Virus record (IMG/VR): IMGVR_UViG_3300031658_000148
Location: 1 to 22,429 of that record
Length of the DNA: 22,429 bases
Strand: one strand, 5' to 3'
Origin: a virus
Within the stretch, counting starts at the first letter, position 1, and each line of letters begins with the position of its first letter. Position numbers and translations under genes: made by a program. The notes beneath the pieces were generated by a model that had not been told where the DNA came from, made no database searches, and was given only the letters and a program-made list of their open reading frames with translations. Shown piece after piece: positions 5,635 through 13,396 of this stretch.

Positions 5635-7233
5635 TTAATTAATTATTTGTAATCCAGAAGGTGTAAAATTGCCAGGTCTTGCTATTTGAGAAGCTCTAGC
5701 CTCATTAAAACTCATGTTATCTGTAGAGTTTCCATTTATAAATCCAGCAGCTAATTCTTTAGCCTTAGCTTCTGAAAAACCTTGTGCTATAAAAATGTTT
5801 TGCAAACCTTTTTGCGCATTATCACCAGGACTTAAGGTTATAGATTTTTTAGTTGATTTACCAGAAGTACTACCGCCTGGTCTTGATATTTTAATATAAT
5901 CAACTGTACCAGGTGTTTGTATTTCGCCTGTATCTTTATCCACAATAGGTTGATCTCCAAATTCTTCAACTTCTAATCCCATTTTACCTAAAGCTTCTTT
6001 TAATTTAGGATTTAATTTTGAATTATCTGTTGAATCTGTTAATTCTAAGTTACCTGAAAATACTCCAGCGTCATTTTGACTAAAACCTAATCCGTTTAAA
6101 TTTTCTGTTGTATTTGTAAATGAATTAGCTAATCTTTCTTGTTCTTGAAGTCTAAAAACTTCATTTGGATCACCTGCATTTGCTGCAGCAGTTGTTTTAG
6201 CTTTTAAAGCTCTAGTGGCTTCTACTCTATATCTATTATCTAAAATACCTTTAGAATCTTTAATAAAATTAGCTTCACCCATTTCTTGAAACCTTTTACC
6301 CATTACATAGTCTAATTCATTCTCATACCTTTCATCTGACAAAGGTTGACCTGTCTTAGCATCTATTTTTGCGTCTGGTGGAACATAACCAAATTGACCA
6401 CCAGTATTTTCCGCCATTGCATCAATTTCTTTTCTTTCCATAAACATCCAATCAGCCGCTGCATATTTTAAACCATCTTCTCCAACGTTTGTTTTATATT
6501 GATCATAAGTGTTTTTCCAAGAAGCTCTAACATCATCATTTACTTCAAAAACATTATTATCGTAAGCTAATTTATTAGCTACTTTTATAGAATCATTTGG
6601 ATTTGTAGGTGTTACTGCTAAAGTTGACATTTGATCAAACTTATTTACTGGCATACTTATTTCATCTCCAGTAACAGTCTTACCTTTTAAAACTAAAGTT
6701 CCATCTTCCATTTCAAAATAGTTTCCATTGTCTGGTGTTAAACCAGTTGCATAAAAACTTAAATCTTCTTCATTGTTGTAACTAGAAGCACCTCCAACAC
6801 CTTTAGTTGCTATAGCTTGTGCTCCAGCTGTCATTTTTTGAACATATTGTGCTTTAGCGCCTTTTAACGTACCCACTTGTTTTAAAACGTTAGCTTTAGC
6901 CATAGCTCTTTCTTGAGTAGTCATACTATCGTCGTTGTCTACTTTATAATATGTGTCAGCTAATAAACCACCTGCAGTTTGCATTTGGTTTTCCATGTTG
7001 TCATATTGACTATCTATTGGAAAATTAAAAGCTGAATACTCTTGTATTTTAAGCTGTTCCATGGAATAATCTTCCAAATCTTGCTTTCTTTGACGATCTT
7101 CAGCTAATCTTCTTCTGTCAGTTCTAACTCTATTTTGATTTATAGCTTCTTCTACAGAATCTCCAATTCGCTTTGATTGATCTGCATAATTACCTGTTCC
7201 GTAGAACTGTTGCCATTCGCTTATGCTTGCCAT
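5635..7233 (-). CDS. Putative internal virion protein (T7 gp15 position)
   Basis: This 532-residue protein belongs to no family I recognise. Residues about 20-70 are charged and helical (many Arg, Glu, Asp, Gln), the middle is mixed, and residues about 455-470 are a Ser/Gly/Lys-rich linker (GGSTSGKSTKK). The C-terminal 60 residues look like a small helical domain. No signal peptide, membrane segment or enzyme motif is visible. Its ATG shares one base with the stop of the S74-domain gene (TAATG), which suggests translational coupling, and the giant virion gene follows 8 bases later. Lying between the gp14-like and giant proteins, it occupies the place of T7 gp15, an ejected protein forming part of the trans-envelope channel. 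That role is inferred from position only. Confidence 0.8.
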   Translation of the reverse strand: MASISEWQQFYGTGNYADQSKRIGDSVEEAINQNRVRTDRRRLAEDRQRKQDLEDYSMEQLKIQEYSAFNFPIDSQYDNMENQMQTAGGLLADTYYKVDNDDSMTTQERAMAKANVLKQVGTLKGAKAQYVQKMTAGAQAIATKGVGGASSYNNEEDLSFYATGLTPDNGNYFEMEDGTLVLKGKTVTGDEISMPVNKFDQMSTLAVTPTNPNDSIKVANKLAYDNNVFEVNDDVRASWKNTYDQYKTNVGEDGLKYAAADWMFMERKEIDAMAENTGGQFGYVPPDAKIDAKTGQPLSDERYENELDYVMGKRFQEMGEANFIKDSKGILDNRYRVEATRALKAKTTAAANAGDPNEVFRLQEQERLANSFTNTTENLNGLGFSQNDAGVFSGNLELTDSTDNSKLNPKLKEALGKMGLEVEEFGDQPIVDKDTGEIQTPGTVDYIKISRPGGSTSGKSTKKSITLSPGDNAQKGLQNIFIAQGFSEAKAKELAAGFINGNSTDNMSFNEARASQIARPGNFTPSGLQIIN

Positions 7234-8633
7234 TATTTAATTTTTTTAAATTCAACATCTATAAAACCGTAATCTACCCTATCAAAACCATCCTCATGTT
7301 TAGCTACGGCATATTCTGGAATTTCATCAGACATTACACCTTGAAAAGTACCTTCACCATGTTTGTTATCTTTATATTCAAAATTATAAATTTTATAACC
7401 ATTCGCAGAAATAGCAACTTCTTTAATATTTTTCTTTAATCTTCTATCGCTTAACATTTTCATTCCTATATCTGCAACACCTGCTATACCACCTATAAGA
7501 TCACCTTTAGCTGCTGCTCTAGCATCTTTGGTTGCTTGATATTCTCCTGCTCTTCTATTTAAAGTATCTTGATCTCTACCATATTCCATGTCTTGAACTC
7601 TCATTTGGCCTTGAGCATTTAATTCTGAATTTCTCATTAAACTTTCTTGAGCAAATCTATCAGCACCTATTTGATTTCCAATATTAAATTGTTGACCTTG
7701 GTTTGCAAATTGAGTATTAGCAAGTTCAAATTTATTATCTGATTGAAATTGCATTTGTTGGTTTCTATTTATGTTGCTCATATTAAATTGCTCTCTTCTT
7801 TCATCAGCTCCAAATTGACTTAATGCAAATTGATTATTAGCTTGAGCTCCAAACTTAGCGGCTTGATTAGCTGCTTGAGCTCCAAATTGAGAAGCTGTAT
7901 TAGCTTGACCTGCTGTAAATTGATTTGCTTGGTTTTGTGCTTGTGCACCAAATTGAGCTGCTTTGTTTTGACCACCAACATTAAATTGAGATTGTCCAAG
8001 ATCAAATTGTGATGATAAATTACCTTGAGCTAATTGAGCTCTTTGCAATTCACCTTCACCTTTTGCTCTCATCATTTCATTAGATTTAACTTGTTGATCT
8101 ATACTTGCTGATATTCCTTGTTTAGATTTAGCTGCAGCAGCGGCCAAAGCAGTTGCGCCACCTGCACCAGTACCAGCTTGAGCTGCTAAGTCTTGAGACG
8201 CTGCTAAAGATTGATCTGCTTCTTGAGCTGCAATTTCAGCACCAGCTGTTGAAACTTGAAGATTAGACATAGTATTAGTAAGACCAGTATTTGCACCTCT
8301 TGCTAATCCTCCTACATTTGTACCTTGTGCGCTGTATCCTTGACCTTCATATCCTTGAGATGTGTATCCTTCAGATGTATATCCTTGAGCATCACCTAAA
8401 GTGCTACCTTGAGCAACACCCATCGGTCCACCTAAAGTTCCTCCAGTTGCTTGTCCAGGTGTGTATTGACCAGGCGCATAAGATCCAGCTGTAAGATCTC
8501 CATACGAATTTTGAAATTGTCTATTTTCAACAGCATCTTCAGCACCTTCAAAACCTTTTTTAGCGGATTTTTCTGCTGCCCTTCTTTTCTTGCCTCCAAA
8601 AGCTGAGGCTACTCCTTTAACTATACTTCCCAT
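7233..8633 (-). CDS. Gln/Gly/Ala-rich virion protein with C-terminal S74 chaperone domain
   Basis: The 466-residue product has a basic N-terminus (GGKKRRAAEKSAKKG), a low-complexity region of GQY/GYxxxG repeats (about 52-104), an Ala-rich helical part (130-200), and Phe-Gln-Asn repeats with an 11-residue period (217-271, looser to about 327). From residue 395 it ends in a short peptidase S74 domain starting SDRRLKKNIKEV. In characterised S74 domains the protein cuts itself just before this Ser using a Ser-Lys pair; here Ser395 and Lys400 have the correct spacing. The domain is short, about 72 residues. Such domains usually help trimeric fibres or spikes fold, so a tail fibre is possible. Position after the GNAT-like gene and before two larger virion genes instead suggests an internal virion protein like T7 gp14. 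The start overlaps the preceding stop as TAATG. Confidence 0.88.
   Translation of the reverse strand: MGSIVKGVASAFGGKKRRAAEKSAKKGFEGAEDAVENRQFQNSYGDLTAGSYAPGQYTPGQATGGTLGGPMGVAQGSTLGDAQGYTSEGYTSQGYEGQGYSAQGTNVGGLARGANTGLTNTMSNLQVSTAGAEIAAQEADQSLAASQDLAAQAGTGAGGATALAAAAAKSKQGISASIDQQVKSNEMMRAKGEGELQRAQLAQGNLSSQFDLGQSQFNVGGQNKAAQFGAQAQNQANQFTAGQANTASQFGAQAANQAAKFGAQANNQFALSQFGADERREQFNMSNINRNQQMQFQSDNKFELANTQFANQGQQFNIGNQIGADRFAQESLMRNSELNAQGQMRVQDMEYGRDQDTLNRRAGEYQATKDARAAAKGDLIGGIAGVADIGMKMLSDRRLKKNIKEVAISANGYKIYNFEYKDNKHGEGTFQGVMSDEIPEYAVAKHEDGFDRVDYGFIDVEFKKIK
7236..7451 (-). other. Peptidase S74 (intramolecular chaperone) domain
   Basis: Residues 395-466 of the preceding protein. The S-D-x-R-L-K signature has the catalytic Ser at 395 and Lys at 400, followed by KNIKEV, GYKIYNFEYKD and a GVMSDEIPEYAV segment typical of the family. 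Both catalytic residues are present, so self-cleavage between Leu394 and Ser395 is predicted. The long helical tail seen in larger members is missing. Confidence 0.87.
7821..7985 (-). repeat. Hendecad (11-residue) Phe/Gln/Asn repeats in the S74-domain protein
   Basis: Phenylalanines fall at residues 217, 228, 239, 250 and 261, exactly 11 apart. The units resemble FGAQAxNQAxx, for example FGAQAQNQANQ and FGAQAANQAAK. At DNA level this is five 33-base units of related sequence. Eleven-residue periods fit a straight or slightly right-handed helical bundle. A looser form of the repeat continues to about residue 327. Confidence 0.85.
8322..8384 (-). repeat. Short Gly-Tyr repeats in the S74-domain protein
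   Basis: Residues 84-104 are four imperfect copies of a GY-containing unit of 5 residues: GYTSE, GYTSQ, GYEGQ and GYSAQ, with a trailing G. On the plus strand the repeating unit reads close to 'tatccttgagatgtg'. The stretch is low-complexity and probably flexible. Related GQY and GGT motifs precede it from about residue 52. Confidence 0.8.
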
Positions 8634-9070
8634 TAGTATTTCATTATTAATTCATAAGATGGAGTTTCATCTACATAATACTCCGCTTTTTTATATTTAT
8701 CTAATAACATTCCTTCTTTTGCCCATGCAAATGCATATTTATATCCTAAGTCTTTTGCAAAATCAGTTGTAAAATTTACTAAGAGTTGCAACGCATCACT
8801 TCTGTCTGTATCGCGATAATGTTTATCGCTAATAACAACAGCTGGAATCGCAGTCTTACTATTTGTCATCCATAGCCACATGGCTGCAATAGGATCATCT
8901 CCTTTGCAAACCATAAAACCACCTAAACCTATTTTTTCTTCTTGTTCATCACCAATTTTAAATGAACCTGGTAAAAAGTCACGTGGGAAAGCATCTGCTT
9001 TGTATGCTTCCCACCAACTTGGTAAAAAATCCCAATCGGATTCTTGTAATTTTCTTACTTGTAATTGCAT
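8633..9070 (-). CDS. GNAT-fold-like protein (T7 gp13 position)
   Basis: The 145-residue protein has the length and layout of a GNAT N-acetyltransferase domain: an N-terminal strand and helix (MQLQVRKLQESDWDF), a central strand pair (KIGLGGFMVCKGDDPIAAMW), a strand then helix (AIPAVVISDKHYRD... LLVNFTTDFAKDLGY) and a final strand pair. The acetyl-CoA loop (usually Q/R-x-x-G-x-G/A) is not clear; the matching place reads YRDTDRSDA. It may therefore be a structural derivative rather than an active enzyme. It lies between tail genes and ejection-type genes, where T7 encodes gp13, an internal virion assembly protein that I believe has been linked to the acetyltransferase fold. Its stop overlaps the next start (TAATG). 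GNAT assignment is moderate; function is inferred. Confidence 0.72.
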   Translation of the reverse strand: MQLQVRKLQESDWDFLPSWWEAYKADAFPRDFLPGSFKIGDEQEEKIGLGGFMVCKGDDPIAAMWLWMTNSKTAIPAVVISDKHYRDTDRSDALQLLVNFTTDFAKDLGYKYAFAWAKEGMLLDKYKKAEYYVDETPSYELIMKY

Positions 9071-9075
9071 ATAAT

Positions 9076-9315
9076 TTAATTTGACGAATTAACTGCTTCT
9101 GCGTTTAAGGCAAATAATTCTTTTTGTGTACCAGCGTTAGCCACTGGTAATTTTAATTTAATTGAAGCAAAAGCTCCTTTTATTCCACTTACTATTTTAT
9201 TACCATTAGCCTGAACAGCTCCATTGACAACAATATAATTAGGTTCTTCAGAGGCTATTGGCGCAAAATATTTACCTTCGTTGTTTTGAAAAGCAAATGT
9301 TACTAAATTTCCCAT
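9076..9315 (-). CDS. Small hypothetical virion-module protein, 79 aa
   Basis: I do not recognise this protein. It is predicted to be mostly beta strand, with hydrophobic alternation in LVTFAFQN and IKGAFASIKLKLPV and an Ala/Asn/Ser-rich end. No Cys, signal peptide or membrane helix is present. Its ATG comes one base after the stop of the 1359-residue tail protein gene, and the GNAT-like gene follows 5 bases after its stop, so it is very likely translated with both. A small virion component or tail accessory protein is plausible, but nothing in the sequence proves it. Confidence 0.7.
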   Translation of the reverse strand: MGNLVTFAFQNNEGKYFAPIASEEPNYIVVNGAVQANGNKIVSGIKGAFASIKLKLPVANAGTQKELFALNAEAVNSSN

Positions 9316-9316
9316 A

Positions 9317-12300
9317 TTACGCTTGTGTTATTGTTATTGTTTGAGTTGCTACTCCTGCACCTGTTACTCTAGTATTAGAAGAAGCTAACGCTATATCTAT
9401 AGTTGCTGATCTAGAAGTTCCAGGATTAGGATTAGTTGTTGCACTTATTGTAAATGAAGTTCCAGGAATTAACTGAATACTTGCATTTGCTCCGTTTAAT
9501 AAAAGCCATGTAGGTAAAACTCCGGGACTTGATACGGTTCCAGAAACATTCCAAGTAGATGCAATAGTTACAGCTGTTCCAGCTGATGTTAAAGACTGTG
9601 TTGCTGAAGTGCTACCTAAAGTAGCAGTCGCTGGTCCAACTGTAGAATCTACAATTGGCGTTATTGAAGTATCTGCAGTTAGCACAGGTATTACTTTTGT
9701 TATAACTAAAGTTCCATCATTGTTATTTAAAACAGGCGTGTTTGTTGTTCCAGTTGGAAAACCAGTAATAACATAACTGTTGCTAACTAAAACTTGTGTA
9801 TTTGAGCATGTATATGTTATAACAGCGGTTCTAGTACTAGGTGCATCAAAAGGTCCATTGTAAAAAGCTACACCTACACCACTAACGTCACCGTTAGATT
9901 GAATAGGAAGTACATAAGTAACAGTACCACCTGTTGGCGCTGAAATAGCTCCTTGATTTAATTGCAATAAATACTTTATAGTTGCAGTTCCGTTTATTAA
10001 TACAGTTCCAGCCGTTGCTGTTGAAGGAACGGTTATAGGTATAGTGTATGTTATATTATCTCCACCAACTCCACTTCTTTCATTAGTTATTGTACCAGGA
10101 GCTGTACTAGCTGGCATATCAACGGTGTTAATAGTAATATTACTGTTATCTACATAATAATTAGTGAAAGCATCTATTGTGAATTCTAGCTCATTGCCAC
10201 CCGAACTGTTAAATACAAAAGACGCAGGATTTATTGTTGCTAAAGAAACGGTATCAGCAGTGTTTACTGTTAATAATGCTACCGTAAATGCTAATCCAGG
10301 TCCAGTTCCTGTTATATCTAATGTTTGTACAGTGTCAGCACTACCAACAGTATGTTGCACTAAAAAAACTAAATTACCATCAGTGACAGCTGTTGGATTT
10401 GTTATTGTTAACGAACTACCAGAAGCTTGAGTTAATATTACTTCACTTGCAAAAGATGTTGTATCAAAAGCGTATTGTGAATTTAAAGGAGATACAAAAA
10501 TAGCCCAACTTATTCCAAAGTTTGTTTTATTAATAATAGTATTAGCTCCATTAAAAATAGATTGAGGAGCTGATCCAGAAAGTTGCAAAGTTGTACTGTA
10601 AGAAGTTTGTAATACAGGTATTGAACCTGCTGAACTGATATCTGTTTGAATATAATCTAATTCCCATCCAGAAGTGCCTTCATAGCTAAGAGAATTAAAT
10701 TGTTTAACTAAAGAAGGAGCATCATTAAATATAGGAATTATATAAGATTCTTTTACTCCTGATCCGTAAAAATTGTTTCTCGAAACGTTATTACTATGAT
10801 GTTGATATAAATTTCCTGCACTAAATGTATAATATTTATTATTTAAAGAAACTCCATCTTCTTGTTTAAAAGATCTATAACTAGTCCAACCATTTGAACG
10901 ATCATCAAAACATAAAGTTAAATAACCATCACTAGCTGTAGCTACATTAGTATCTATATTGCTATCATAACCTTCACCAATTATAGTTAATTCATAAATT
11001 CTACTATACTCATCATAAGAACCTATTATTTCTGTAGAATTTTTTAATGCATCTCTAAAAAAATCACCCATACCGTTTTGTGATATTTCTTGTATTCCAT
11101 TTTGAGATAATCTTAATACAGTACCTTTATTTTTGTCAGTAAAATATCTAGAAAAACCATAAGATGCAAAAGAACCAGGATCTTTAGATATACCAAATTG
11201 ACCAGCATAAGCAGCTATAGTTCCTAAAAATTGTGAATTACTAGTTACAGGAACAGCACCACCTTCTGCTGAATAAATAAAATCTTTATCTATAGGAGAA
11301 CGAGAAACTTTACTTTCTTGAAACACAATAATTTGCGTATCATCAGAAAATAATTTTTGTACTGATCCATTTAAAGGATCTAAAGATATAGTTAAACCAC
11401 CTTCAGCTTCATTAAATTGGTTTATATAATTTATACCAGTTCTAGAATTTAAAAGTCCACTAGAATGTATAAGAGTATTGTTTCTTCTTTCTTCTGTAAA
11501 GTTTTCTTGAACAACATAAGCTCTAACTCCAACGTCAAAAAAAGGTTGATTATAACCTGCTCTAATTCTATTTATTTCTATATGATCATCGTTAGAACCT
11601 CCTCCATCTGGATCAAAAGTTAAAAGTATACAATTAAAAAAATTAATATTAATAACAACGTTTTCAATATTTCCAACAAGACCACCTGTTGATGTTTCGT
11701 AAAATATGTCTAATTCAGAACTAACGGGTTCTGTTTCAAAAACACAAACTCCAGAAGTTACTCCTGCACCCGCGTTGTTTAAAGTATTTACTAAAGCTGT
11801 ACCTTGTGGATTTGCTATAGATTGTATGGATTGTAAACTTCCTGCAAAATTATTAGCCGCATTTGACGTATAAACATTTCCTCCTCCTAAATATTTAGGA
11901 TAAACAGATACATCACAAGGTGATATTGAATTACCAGTACTTGGTGGTATAACAGCAGTTTGATCTCTAGGTATTTTATTTATACTATCACCTAATCTTT
12001 GTACTGTGCTTGCTGAAGATACAACAGAAATCCAATTATAATATTCTTGTTCTCTTTGTTTTACAACAATTTTATAAGAATAAGCCCATGTAGGTATTTG
12101 TGTTACATCTGTAAAAGCTATTCTTAAAGCATTAAAAGCTGTTGTTGAAGATGCACTTCCTTTATCAGGATCAACATAAACAGTATCTACTCCATCACTA
12201 GATAATATAACCGGTGATTGTCTACCAAATTTATCAGCTAATACAACACCAACTTGATAAGTTCTTCTTGATTTAACAGATTGATTTTTTAAAGGACCTG

Positions 12301-13396
12301 TTGGTCCAGTGTTTCTAGCATCATCATCACCTGTTACAGTAACATTAAATGCAATAGATGGTACGTTATAGTTTTGTAAAAAATTACCATAAACTAATCT
12401 ACCTCCACCTACTTCTTGTGATAAAGCTTTTCTAGGAACTGAATCATAAACTCTAGTTAATTGATCTCCAGGTAAAGTTCTAAATGGATCAGTTGAAGAA
12501 TATGTAAAGTTTATAAAAGGTTCTGTTGTAACTTCTTTATCTTCAGCAACATATAAAGTACCTGATCCAGATTCTTTATAAATTAATTCAACATTTTTAA
12601 TACCATAGCCAGTTGGCGTAGGCACTTGTAATTGAATTTGATTTATAGCGTTTGTAAATGTTTCAATTTCTCCAAAATTTTGTATATTACCAGACACAGA
12701 ATCTAGCTGATCTAACCTAGAAAAACAAATAGAAGAAAATGGAGCTAATGTGCTATATTCATTATCTTCAAATTTCCATCTATAAGAAAATCTAACTAAT
12801 TTATCTTCTAAAAAAGTAGATGATATAGAACCTAATCTTATAGCTGTAATTAAAGTTGCAGATTTATAAGGTGCAAATTTACATACCGATATTAAATTAT
12901 CTATATATGCAGGTGCTGTGTAATAATTAACATTATTACTAGCTGTAACTACATTTATTTTTCTTGGATAATTTCTATTGTCAGTCCAAAATAAAAGGTC
13001 ATCTATTAAATTAATGCCACTTATAGGATAATTAACATGAAAATTTAATTGTTGAGAAACTATTAAAGCTTTCCAAAATCTTGTTTTTTGATTGTATTCG
13101 TATATACCATGACTACCAGTATTGGTTTCATTATATATAGAATTTGTTGTAATAAAGTAATAAATTTTTTCATTAGCTTCATCTGCAAGAGAACCAATAC
13201 ATTTTGCAGTGCCAGAAAGACCATTAGATGCAACTAATTCATTACCTAATAAATTCTCCACAGCACCAACATCTGAACCTTCTGATTGTCCTATATTGAT
13301 ATTTAACGCTTCTCGATACTCACCGGGAGGTACTATTCTATCATCTAAATCTCGGTTCATTTTACCGACATTAAATGTTCTTTTAATTTCTGGCAT
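9317..13396 (-). CDS. Large tail (tail-tube/stabilisation or 'muzzle'-type) protein with BACON-like C-terminus
   Basis: The 1359-residue protein begins with a motif I associate with tail-stabilisation proteins of crAss-like and marine podoviruses: MNRDLDDRIVPPGEYREALN at 13-32, then EGSDVGAVENLLGN. Residues to about 950 are beta-rich with repeated YxYN and W/Y-containing blades, suggesting a propeller-like fold as in P22 gp10 or T7 gp12. From about 970 to 1255 there are Thr/Ser/Val-rich Ig-like segments, and residues 1258-1359 resemble a BACON domain. It is much longer than T7 gp12 (about 794 residues) because of these C-terminal additions, which are likely exposed and may touch the host or surface glycans. 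It starts 9 bases after the adaptor-type gene ends. General assignment is firm; exact equivalence to a named tail protein is inferred. Confidence 0.82.
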   Translation of the reverse strand: MPEIKRTFNVGKMNRDLDDRIVPPGEYREALNINIGQSEGSDVGAVENLLGNELVASNGLSGTAKCIGSLADEANEKIYYFITTNSIYNETNTGSHGIYEYNQKTRFWKALIVSQQLNFHVNYPISGINLIDDLLFWTDNRNYPRKINVVTASNNVNYYTAPAYIDNLISVCKFAPYKSATLITAIRLGSISSTFLEDKLVRFSYRWKFEDNEYSTLAPFSSICFSRLDQLDSVSGNIQNFGEIETFTNAINQIQLQVPTPTGYGIKNVELIYKESGSGTLYVAEDKEVTTEPFINFTYSSTDPFRTLPGDQLTRVYDSVPRKALSQEVGGGRLVYGNFLQNYNVPSIAFNVTVTGDDDARNTGPTGPLKNQSVKSRRTYQVGVVLADKFGRQSPVILSSDGVDTVYVDPDKGSASSTTAFNALRIAFTDVTQIPTWAYSYKIVVKQREQEYYNWISVVSSASTVQRLGDSINKIPRDQTAVIPPSTGNSISPCDVSVYPKYLGGGNVYTSNAANNFAGSLQSIQSIANPQGTALVNTLNNAGAGVTSGVCVFETEPVSSELDIFYETSTGGLVGNIENVVININFFNCILLTFDPDGGGSNDDHIEINRIRAGYNQPFFDVGVRAYVVQENFTEERRNNTLIHSSGLLNSRTGINYINQFNEAEGGLTISLDPLNGSVQKLFSDDTQIIVFQESKVSRSPIDKDFIYSAEGGAVPVTSNSQFLGTIAAYAGQFGISKDPGSFASYGFSRYFTDKNKGTVLRLSQNGIQEISQNGMGDFFRDALKNSTEIIGSYDEYSRIYELTIIGEGYDSNIDTNVATASDGYLTLCFDDRSNGWTSYRSFKQEDGVSLNNKYYTFSAGNLYQHHSNNVSRNNFYGSGVKESYIIPIFNDAPSLVKQFNSLSYEGTSGWELDYIQTDISSAGSIPVLQTSYSTTLQLSGSAPQSIFNGANTIINKTNFGISWAIFVSPLNSQYAFDTTSFASEVILTQASGSSLTITNPTAVTDGNLVFLVQHTVGSADTVQTLDITGTGPGLAFTVALLTVNTADTVSLATINPASFVFNSSGGNELEFTIDAFTNYYVDNSNITINTVDMPASTAPGTITNERSGVGGDNITYTIPITVPSTATAGTVLINGTATIKYLLQLNQGAISAPTGGTVTYVLPIQSNGDVSGVGVAFYNGPFDAPSTRTAVITYTCSNTQVLVSNSYVITGFPTGTTNTPVLNNNDGTLVITKVIPVLTADTSITPIVDSTVGPATATLGSTSATQSLTSAGTAVTIASTWNVSGTVSSPGVLPTWLLLNGANASIQLIPGTSFTISATTNPNPGTSRSATIDIALASSNTRVTGAGVATQTITITQA
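9320..9625 (-). other. BACON-like domain at the C-terminus of the tail protein
   Basis: Residues 1258-1359 show the pattern of BACON (Bacteroidetes-associated carbohydrate-binding often N-terminal) domains: STWNVSG, then PTWLLLNG, then FTISATTNPNPGTSRSATID, ending TQTITITQA. The R-S-A-T-I strand after an NPNPG turn and the closing TITITQ are the clearest points. BACON domains are common in Bacteroidota proteins and occur in crAss-like phage proteins. Carbohydrate or mucin binding is proposed for the family but not shown for every member. Confidence 0.68.

Follow-up and report, generated by a model that had tools for sequence, protein, structure and literature searches.

Which virion protein of a crAss-like phage ends in a BACON-like domain, and how could such a domain be carried on the particle? 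The question is raised by the virus record IMGVR_UViG_3300031658_000148, a fragment of 22,429 bases that was analysed over its whole length (the window) and that contains head-tail genes of a crAss-like phage. The neighbouring ORFs match terminase, portal, and virion structural PHROGs in crassvirus order, and phi38:1 has the same terminase-portal-structural order; the arrangement around crassvirus muzzle genes (terminase, portal, capsid, tail proteins, muzzle, large cargo genes) is also found in the window, with the cargo genes recognized by position only. The features of the locus are as follows:

9317-13396, reverse strand: muzzle chain A, 1359 aa (PF25731, PF25729, phrog_14478, and similarity to Calle_1)
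10622-13396, reverse strand: muzzle core, residues 1-925, boundary approximate, with the first half of crAss_MUZ_C at 872-913 (conservation and extent of blastp alignments)
10295-10609, reverse strand: predicted arm domain 1, an Ig-like beta sandwich, residues ~930-1034 (AlphaFold2 model, boundaries from its strand list)
9977-10276, reverse strand: predicted arm domain 2, Ig-like, residues ~1041-1140 (same 445-residue AlphaFold2 model)
9635-9934, reverse strand: predicted arm domain 3, Ig-like, residues ~1155-1254 (same 445-residue AlphaFold2 model)
9320-9625, reverse strand: BACON domain, residues 1258-1359, the free C-terminal end of chain A (profiles of relatives and AlphaFold2 fold matches)
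9313-9319, reverse strand: junction, made up of the stop TAA, one base, and the start ATG of chain B (sequence)
9076-9315, reverse strand: muzzle chain B, 79 aa, read as the detached C-terminal end of the muzzle (conservation, HMM, and PF25729 joining)

By its sequence, the 1359-aa ORF at 9317-13396 is a crassvirus muzzle; the ORF is real, and it is conserved among relatives. It matches PF25731 (crAss_MUZ) over residues 11-158 only (E 5.9e-11, 41.7 bits, cut-off 27) and phrog_14478 with an E-value of 2.3e-107; its match to PF25729 (crAss_MUZ_C) involves residues 872-913, scores below the cut-off of 27 (23.4 bits, E 8.4e-5), and covers only positions 2-42 of the 83 in that family. The structural protein of Cellulophaga phage Calle_1 is 32% identical to it over 58%, and, among the 40 matches listed of 87 records, structural proteins of Cellulophaga, Tenacibaculum, Maribacter, and Flavobacterium phages are about 25-32% identical. 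Blastp alignments to named phage muzzles extend to about residue 911-926 (to 1020 in Gundel). No solved muzzle was returned at E ≤ 1 from PDB sequences with the muzzle or the whole-muzzle profile as query, so the link to crAss001 is drawn from Pfam and a weak blastp match (E 1.7e-4). Scanning viral contigs for the muzzle yielded 77 loci, of which 76 were read: the muzzle is full-length (>1200 aa) in 67, is truncated by the contig end in eight, and breaks off early in one (L064). Together with the window, the 67 relatives give 68 full-length muzzles, or 42 after dereplication.

The original prediction had assigned the last 102 residues of this protein (1258-1359, encoded by nucleotides 9625-9320) to the BACON family. 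Taken alone, this stretch has no Pfam match at E ≤ 1, no PHROG match, no tblastn match against phages, and a match of chance level among PDB sequences (E 0.47); the record as a whole has no PF13004 match. The family to which it belongs is more informative: PF13004 (BACON) is matched at E ≤ 1 by 36 of the 42 dereplicated terminal stretches (the window's included), with a best E-value of 2.4e-8, and PF19190 (Viral BACON, BACON_2) by 14 of them, the best of these (5.1e-5, 23.6 bits) being below the cut-off of 25. All ten members that were scanned singly match BACON, three of them (34.2, 29.1, and 27.2 bits) above the 25-bit cut-off. With an HMM built from the 42 stretches, all 68 full-length muzzles of the clade (42 of them in the training set) show the domain at their C-terminus; BACON domains are often N-terminal in multidomain proteins, which, being a matter of "often", is not decisive. 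A PHROG scan of the 42 members gave scattered single-member matches only, and their profile gave non-significant matches among PDB sequences (8va4, a GH16, at E 0.23; 3zmr at E 5.6).

The predicted folds point the same way. AlphaFold2 models of residues 915-1359 (445 residues, mean pLDDT 88.2) and of the single domain (85.0) both have the BACON domain of BoGH5A (3zmr) as their best solved match: in the longer model, 3zmr residues 42-127 align with Z 11.3 and rmsd 2.1 A over 84 residues at 17% identity, the next row covering the terminal domain alone being at Z 7.3; in the single-domain model, the match has Z 10.6 and rmsd 1.9 A, again over 84 residues. The structure 4zmh, which is listed as BACON/BACON_2 in PMC11216935, ranks 37th (Z 7.7). 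The terminal domain is a BACON, as established for its family; it is established for the window's stretch because it is established for the family. Both the profile search and the structure comparison thus bear the assignment out.

In the 445-residue model, residues 926-1359 (434 aa) form an arm of three Ig-like domains followed by the BACON; this arm is set into the C-terminal domain of the muzzle, and chain A stops where the arm does. Among the 42 members, mean pairwise identity is 0.71 in the core, 0.48, 0.43, 0.39, and 0.39 in the four arm domains in order, and 0.62 in chain B. A BFVD fold search of the arm was uninformative, with TM-scores of 0.08-0.22 among the 50 matches listed, which comprise generic Ig-like proteins and several viral proteins named BACON.

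Several relatives (L027, L029, L035, L040, and others, the window not among them) carry an insertion of about 100 residues between arm domains 2 and 3 (columns ~207-345 of alignment A3). A C-x2-H-x2-M motif in this insertion (YYC..HS.MG) was observed in 28 of the 68 full-length muzzles, and we take it to look like a copper site of the cupredoxin type.

Where on the muzzle is the arm rooted? In crAss001, the tip is described as the crass domain, which is inserted in IG2 (318-1021) and spans residues 453-904 and 940-1012 (PMC10172136). The C-terminal muzzle domain of the same protein, at residues 1244-1333, lies after the crass domain and outside the tip, so the arm root belongs to the body of the muzzle. 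The earlier claim of a BACON on a large tail protein is therefore upheld and sharpened in one part, the carrier being a crassvirus muzzle, and is doubtful in the other, namely the placement at the tip, since the arm roots in the C-terminal muzzle domain.

The missing part of that domain appears to be encoded immediately downstream. An ORF of 78 or 79 aa (chain B) adjoins the muzzle stop in 67 of 67 full-length relatives; that of the window (9076-9315) resembles at its end the muzzle ends of phi38:1, Gundel, elemoF, and crAss001, in all four of which PF25729 is complete in one chain. When the small ORF alone was used for a scan, 80 loci were kept, in 78 of which the muzzle ORF ends at the small ORF; terminal residues were BACON-like in all 11 that were read of these 78. 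In two near-identical contigs (L164 and L165), the muzzle ORF itself includes the small-ORF sequence as a fusion, and the site is without an arm. The small-ORF HMM matches the C-termini of fused muzzles in L255 (the same contig as L164; 1.9e-11), L256 (1.1e-8), L257 (4.3e-6), and L258 (6.6e-11), the best of 2000 shuffled controls reaching 8.4 bits. Its top six matches among 826 ORFs from eight named crass-like phage loci are all muzzle-end ORFs (two at E < 0.01, and four weak ones at E 0.029-0.45); the Gundel muzzle was found at E 8.3, and the crAss001 muzzle is not among the matches listed.

Chain B has no Pfam match by itself. When it is joined to the end of the core, however, the PF25729 match of the window grows from positions 2-42 to 2-80 of 83, and this remainder of the family aligns only with chain B joined. 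In three cases of joined halves, coverage rises from 42 or 43 to 80 or 81 of the 83 positions, and the score rises in all three (27.7 to 33.3, 27.8 to 31.7, and 33.9 to 39.3 bits; gains of 3.9-5.6 bits, read without a shuffled control). From the presence of the small ORF in all 67 relatives, its fused homologues, and the joining of PF25729, we conclude that the C-terminal end of the muzzle is most probably made as a second chain. Sequencing error was rejected as the cause of the split, which all 67 relatives keep.

Split muzzles are also found across wider crass-like loci. We surveyed 141 loci (out of 171, distinct by exact 200-base probes; not a random sample), taken from named phages without crAss001 and from the best-80 lists of the scans, using a core HMM (in window numbering) and a tail HMM that were both iterated on the survey itself. 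The muzzle occupies at least two ORFs in 91 loci; the tail lies in the muzzle ORF in 26 (in one of them, L256, the first 200 muzzle residues are absent from the tail-bearing ORF), and 24 loci, mostly at contig ends, are unassigned. In 73 of the 91 split loci, the tail has an ORF of its own, 106-178 residues long from stop to stop: it is directly behind the muzzle ORF in 18, where the muzzle ORF extends 241-1566 residues past the core, and lies 763-4118 nt downstream, with other sequence between, in the remaining 55. The E-values of the tail ORFs have a median of 8.5e-23 (worst, 5.3e-14), and the best E-value of both HMMs on 2778 reversed ORFs is 0.08. The other 18 split loci are cut elsewhere: at about residue 113 (L255), 192-194 (L257 and L258), 576-601 (five loci), about 683 (Panino), and 816-825 (nine loci, with 344-966 extra residues on the first piece).

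A Pfam scan of the first-piece extensions of ten loci revealed Big_9 and cadherin-like domains in L386, L392, and L407, and He_PIG in L342 (over the cut-off); below the cut-off were a BACON match in L367 (22.9 bits, cut-off 25), Ig_2 in L255, and a weak Big_9 in L391, and the extensions of L345, L372, and L373 had no Pfam match. The pattern of an Ig-like arm followed by a cut thus recurs. The window's version with a BACON appears, within this sample, to be confined to its clade, as the terminal-domain HMM has no match among the 2778 survey ORFs at i-E 1e-3. On balance we lean, by a small step, toward a wider statement: in a large non-gut crAss-like group the muzzle would be made of two (sometimes three) chains and be cut at any of several sites, each cut would mark the exit of a linear Ig-like arm with several domains from the muzzle body, and repeated gene fission would hang removable fibres from the middle of a folded, hexameric gate protein.

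Several single loci of the survey deserve mention. L257 and L258 have additional pieces: the middle ORF (L257:460-4227 and L258:299-4246) starts near muzzle residue 112 and has about 1200 residues after residue 188, the next ORF restarts near 192, and the muzzle seems to be cut at least twice. In Maribacter phage Panino (L083, 10745-10808), the muzzle is broken near residue 683 in overlapping frames and has no arm; L327 and L381 also break in overlapping frames, and a sequencing error or a frameshift is possible in all three. Finally, ORFs of about 510 aa that look Ig-like separate the muzzle ORF from its detached tail in L261 (after 8568), L284 (after 8625), and L288 (after 8304), as if arms can also be separate proteins.

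Two other accounts of the small ORF have to be weighed against a split muzzle. Chain B might be an independent small virion protein that shares the muzzle domain, the clade's muzzle having given up its original C-terminal end upon gaining the arm; chain B forms a complete small ORF that has a start codon of its own, and the separate tail ORF is non-adjacent in those 55 of 73 survey loci. Yet the tail-bearing ORF is single in 114 of the 141 loci, absent in 27, and never present twice; the muzzle ORF is without the piece where a separate ORF has it; and the conservation of chain B is close to that of the core. We regard this account as unlikely. Alternatively, programmed frameshifting or stop readthrough might join both ORFs, and the muzzle would be one chain with a long inserted arm. 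This agrees with the close spacing of the two ORFs, which in 67 of 67 relatives lie end to end or share a few bases, with stop-to-start offsets of -1 in 30, +1 in 26, +2 in 5, -4 in 4, 0 in 1, and +4 in 1. However, chains A and B are in three relative frames (39, 27, and 1 of 67), so that two different shifts would be needed besides one in-frame case, and the muzzle stop codons TAA, TAG, and TGA are all used, which leaves the joined chain with very little probability. The varying offsets fit a restart, not one programmed shift, and the overlap or abutment of stop and start in the window's clade suggests termination-reinitiation.

The terminal domain leaves a similar choice. A generic Ig-like or fibronectin-like domain could have converged on the BACON pattern, and some comparisons lean that way: Fn3_arc is the next family (4 of the 42 stretches) and scores slightly above BACON in 2 of the ten single scans (L027 and L066, both of which also match BACON); a pilus chaperone is the runner-up of the single-domain model at Z 9.6, within 1 Z unit; and in Foldseek, which has no match for the domain at E ≤ 0.001, 3zmr is tied with pilus chaperones at E 0.017. 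Against this, BACON is matched by 36 of the 42 stretches, three of the ten members scanned singly exceed its curated cut-off, and a BACON domain is the best solved match in both models; we thus consider a generic domain, the outcome that would have spoken against the original assignment, decidedly unlikely. Granting a BACON, it might itself be a glycan-binding receptor module: it sits at the end of a variable arm carried by a tail protein, its family is named as carbohydrate-binding, and crAssphage BACON proteins have been proposed to aid host binding (PMC6949934). But a spacer role is ascribed to bacterial BACON (PMC11216935), and that of BoGH5A is reported to have bound none of the substrates tried (PMC9853417); moreover, the residues that are invariant across the 42 members (A4, W43, R89, and Q104) look, in our reading, structural and not like a binding patch. 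Glycan binding by the BACON itself is unsupported and seems to us rather improbable; the domain may be a terminal spacer, and binding may reside in any of the four arm domains.

The split muzzle remains our preferred reading, and we think it likely that a two-chain muzzle lets a linear, BACON-capped arm hang from inside a folded domain, with chain B completing that domain and the variable arm probably contacting the host. Chain A would run through the muzzle core, leave the C-terminal muzzle fold, form the three Ig-like domains and the BACON cap, and stop. Chain B would start right after this stop, most likely by termination-reinitiation, supply the rest of the C-terminal domain, and associate with chain A without a peptide link. 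An inserted loop has to run back into its fold; cutting the chain at the distal end of the loop would release it as a free linear arm and so create a branch point. If a virion has six copies of the muzzle, as crAss001 does, it would carry six such arms; from its position, variability, and exposure, the arm is probably a host-contacting appendage, its variable domains touching the host surface or its glycans.

How does this arrangement compare with known systems? The crAss001 muzzle protein gp44 (PF25731 and PF25729; PMC10172136) belongs to the same family and has the same gene order as described there, but it is one chain, with crAss_MUZ_C at residues 1244-1333 of 1371, whereas the domain is split in the window and bears a 434-aa arm; the word BACON does not occur in the main text of the crAss001 paper (PMC10172136), while the muzzle of the window ends in one. 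Cellulophaga phage phi46:3 and its relatives likewise have the muzzle in two adjacent ORFs, gp111 and gp112, both annotated as structural proteins (by blastp, residues 1-804 of the window's muzzle, P0001, are in gp111 and 827-923 in gp112). The cut is about 100 residues earlier than in the window, and the arm of about 490 aa contains Big_9/cadherin and has no BACON match. The BACON proteins of crAssphage and gut phages (de Jonge 2019, PMC6949934) resemble the window's in being BACONs of crAss-like phages in a tail context; they consist of tandem repeats, are encoded by separate ORFs close to tail genes, and come mostly from gut or sewage contigs, and the single BACONs reported there are not near tail genes, whereas the window has a single BACON that ends the muzzle itself. 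The BoGH5A BACON, the closest fold (rmsd 1.9-2.1 A over 84 residues, 16-17% identity), is an N-terminal spacer of a surface enzyme, whereas that of the window is C-terminal on a virion arm.

In full-text searches of the open-licence literature, neither a split muzzle nor a muzzle-borne BACON turned up. Beyond the earlier BACON observation, the main feature is that the muzzle chain is split where the arm ends, which would explain small "hypothetical" ORFs behind muzzle genes; splitting at the end of an inserted arm would be a simple rule by which a rigid virion machine gains exchangeable appendages. The muzzle is described as the gatekeeper of crassvirus genome ejection (PMC10172136). If the arms root in the muzzle body and the C-terminal end is held non-covalently, then pulling on the arm, or loss or shift of the piece, are testable ways of opening the gate.

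As in the earlier remark, no classical fibre gene was found in the window, which is a fragment of 22,429 bases; the only fibre-like signal is a sub-cut-off Peptidase_S74 match. This match (20.4 bits, cut-off 22) is at the C-terminus of the ORF at 7233-8633 (reverse strand), a Q/N/A-rich structural protein of 466 aa (phrog_6121). The ORF was rejected as a tail fibre gene on account of the S74 score, its Q/N/A-rich body, and its place, which is that of the crassvirus cargo genes (composition and position being our own reading). By eye, the S74-like module is present on 8 of the 49 homologue ends listed, and therefore seems to be optional. The ORF at 8633-9070 (reverse strand; 145 aa, phrog_17252) has, also by eye, the look of a GNAT acetyltransferase, and ctfjg026 has, at a comparable position, a gene annotated as an acetyltransferase subunit.
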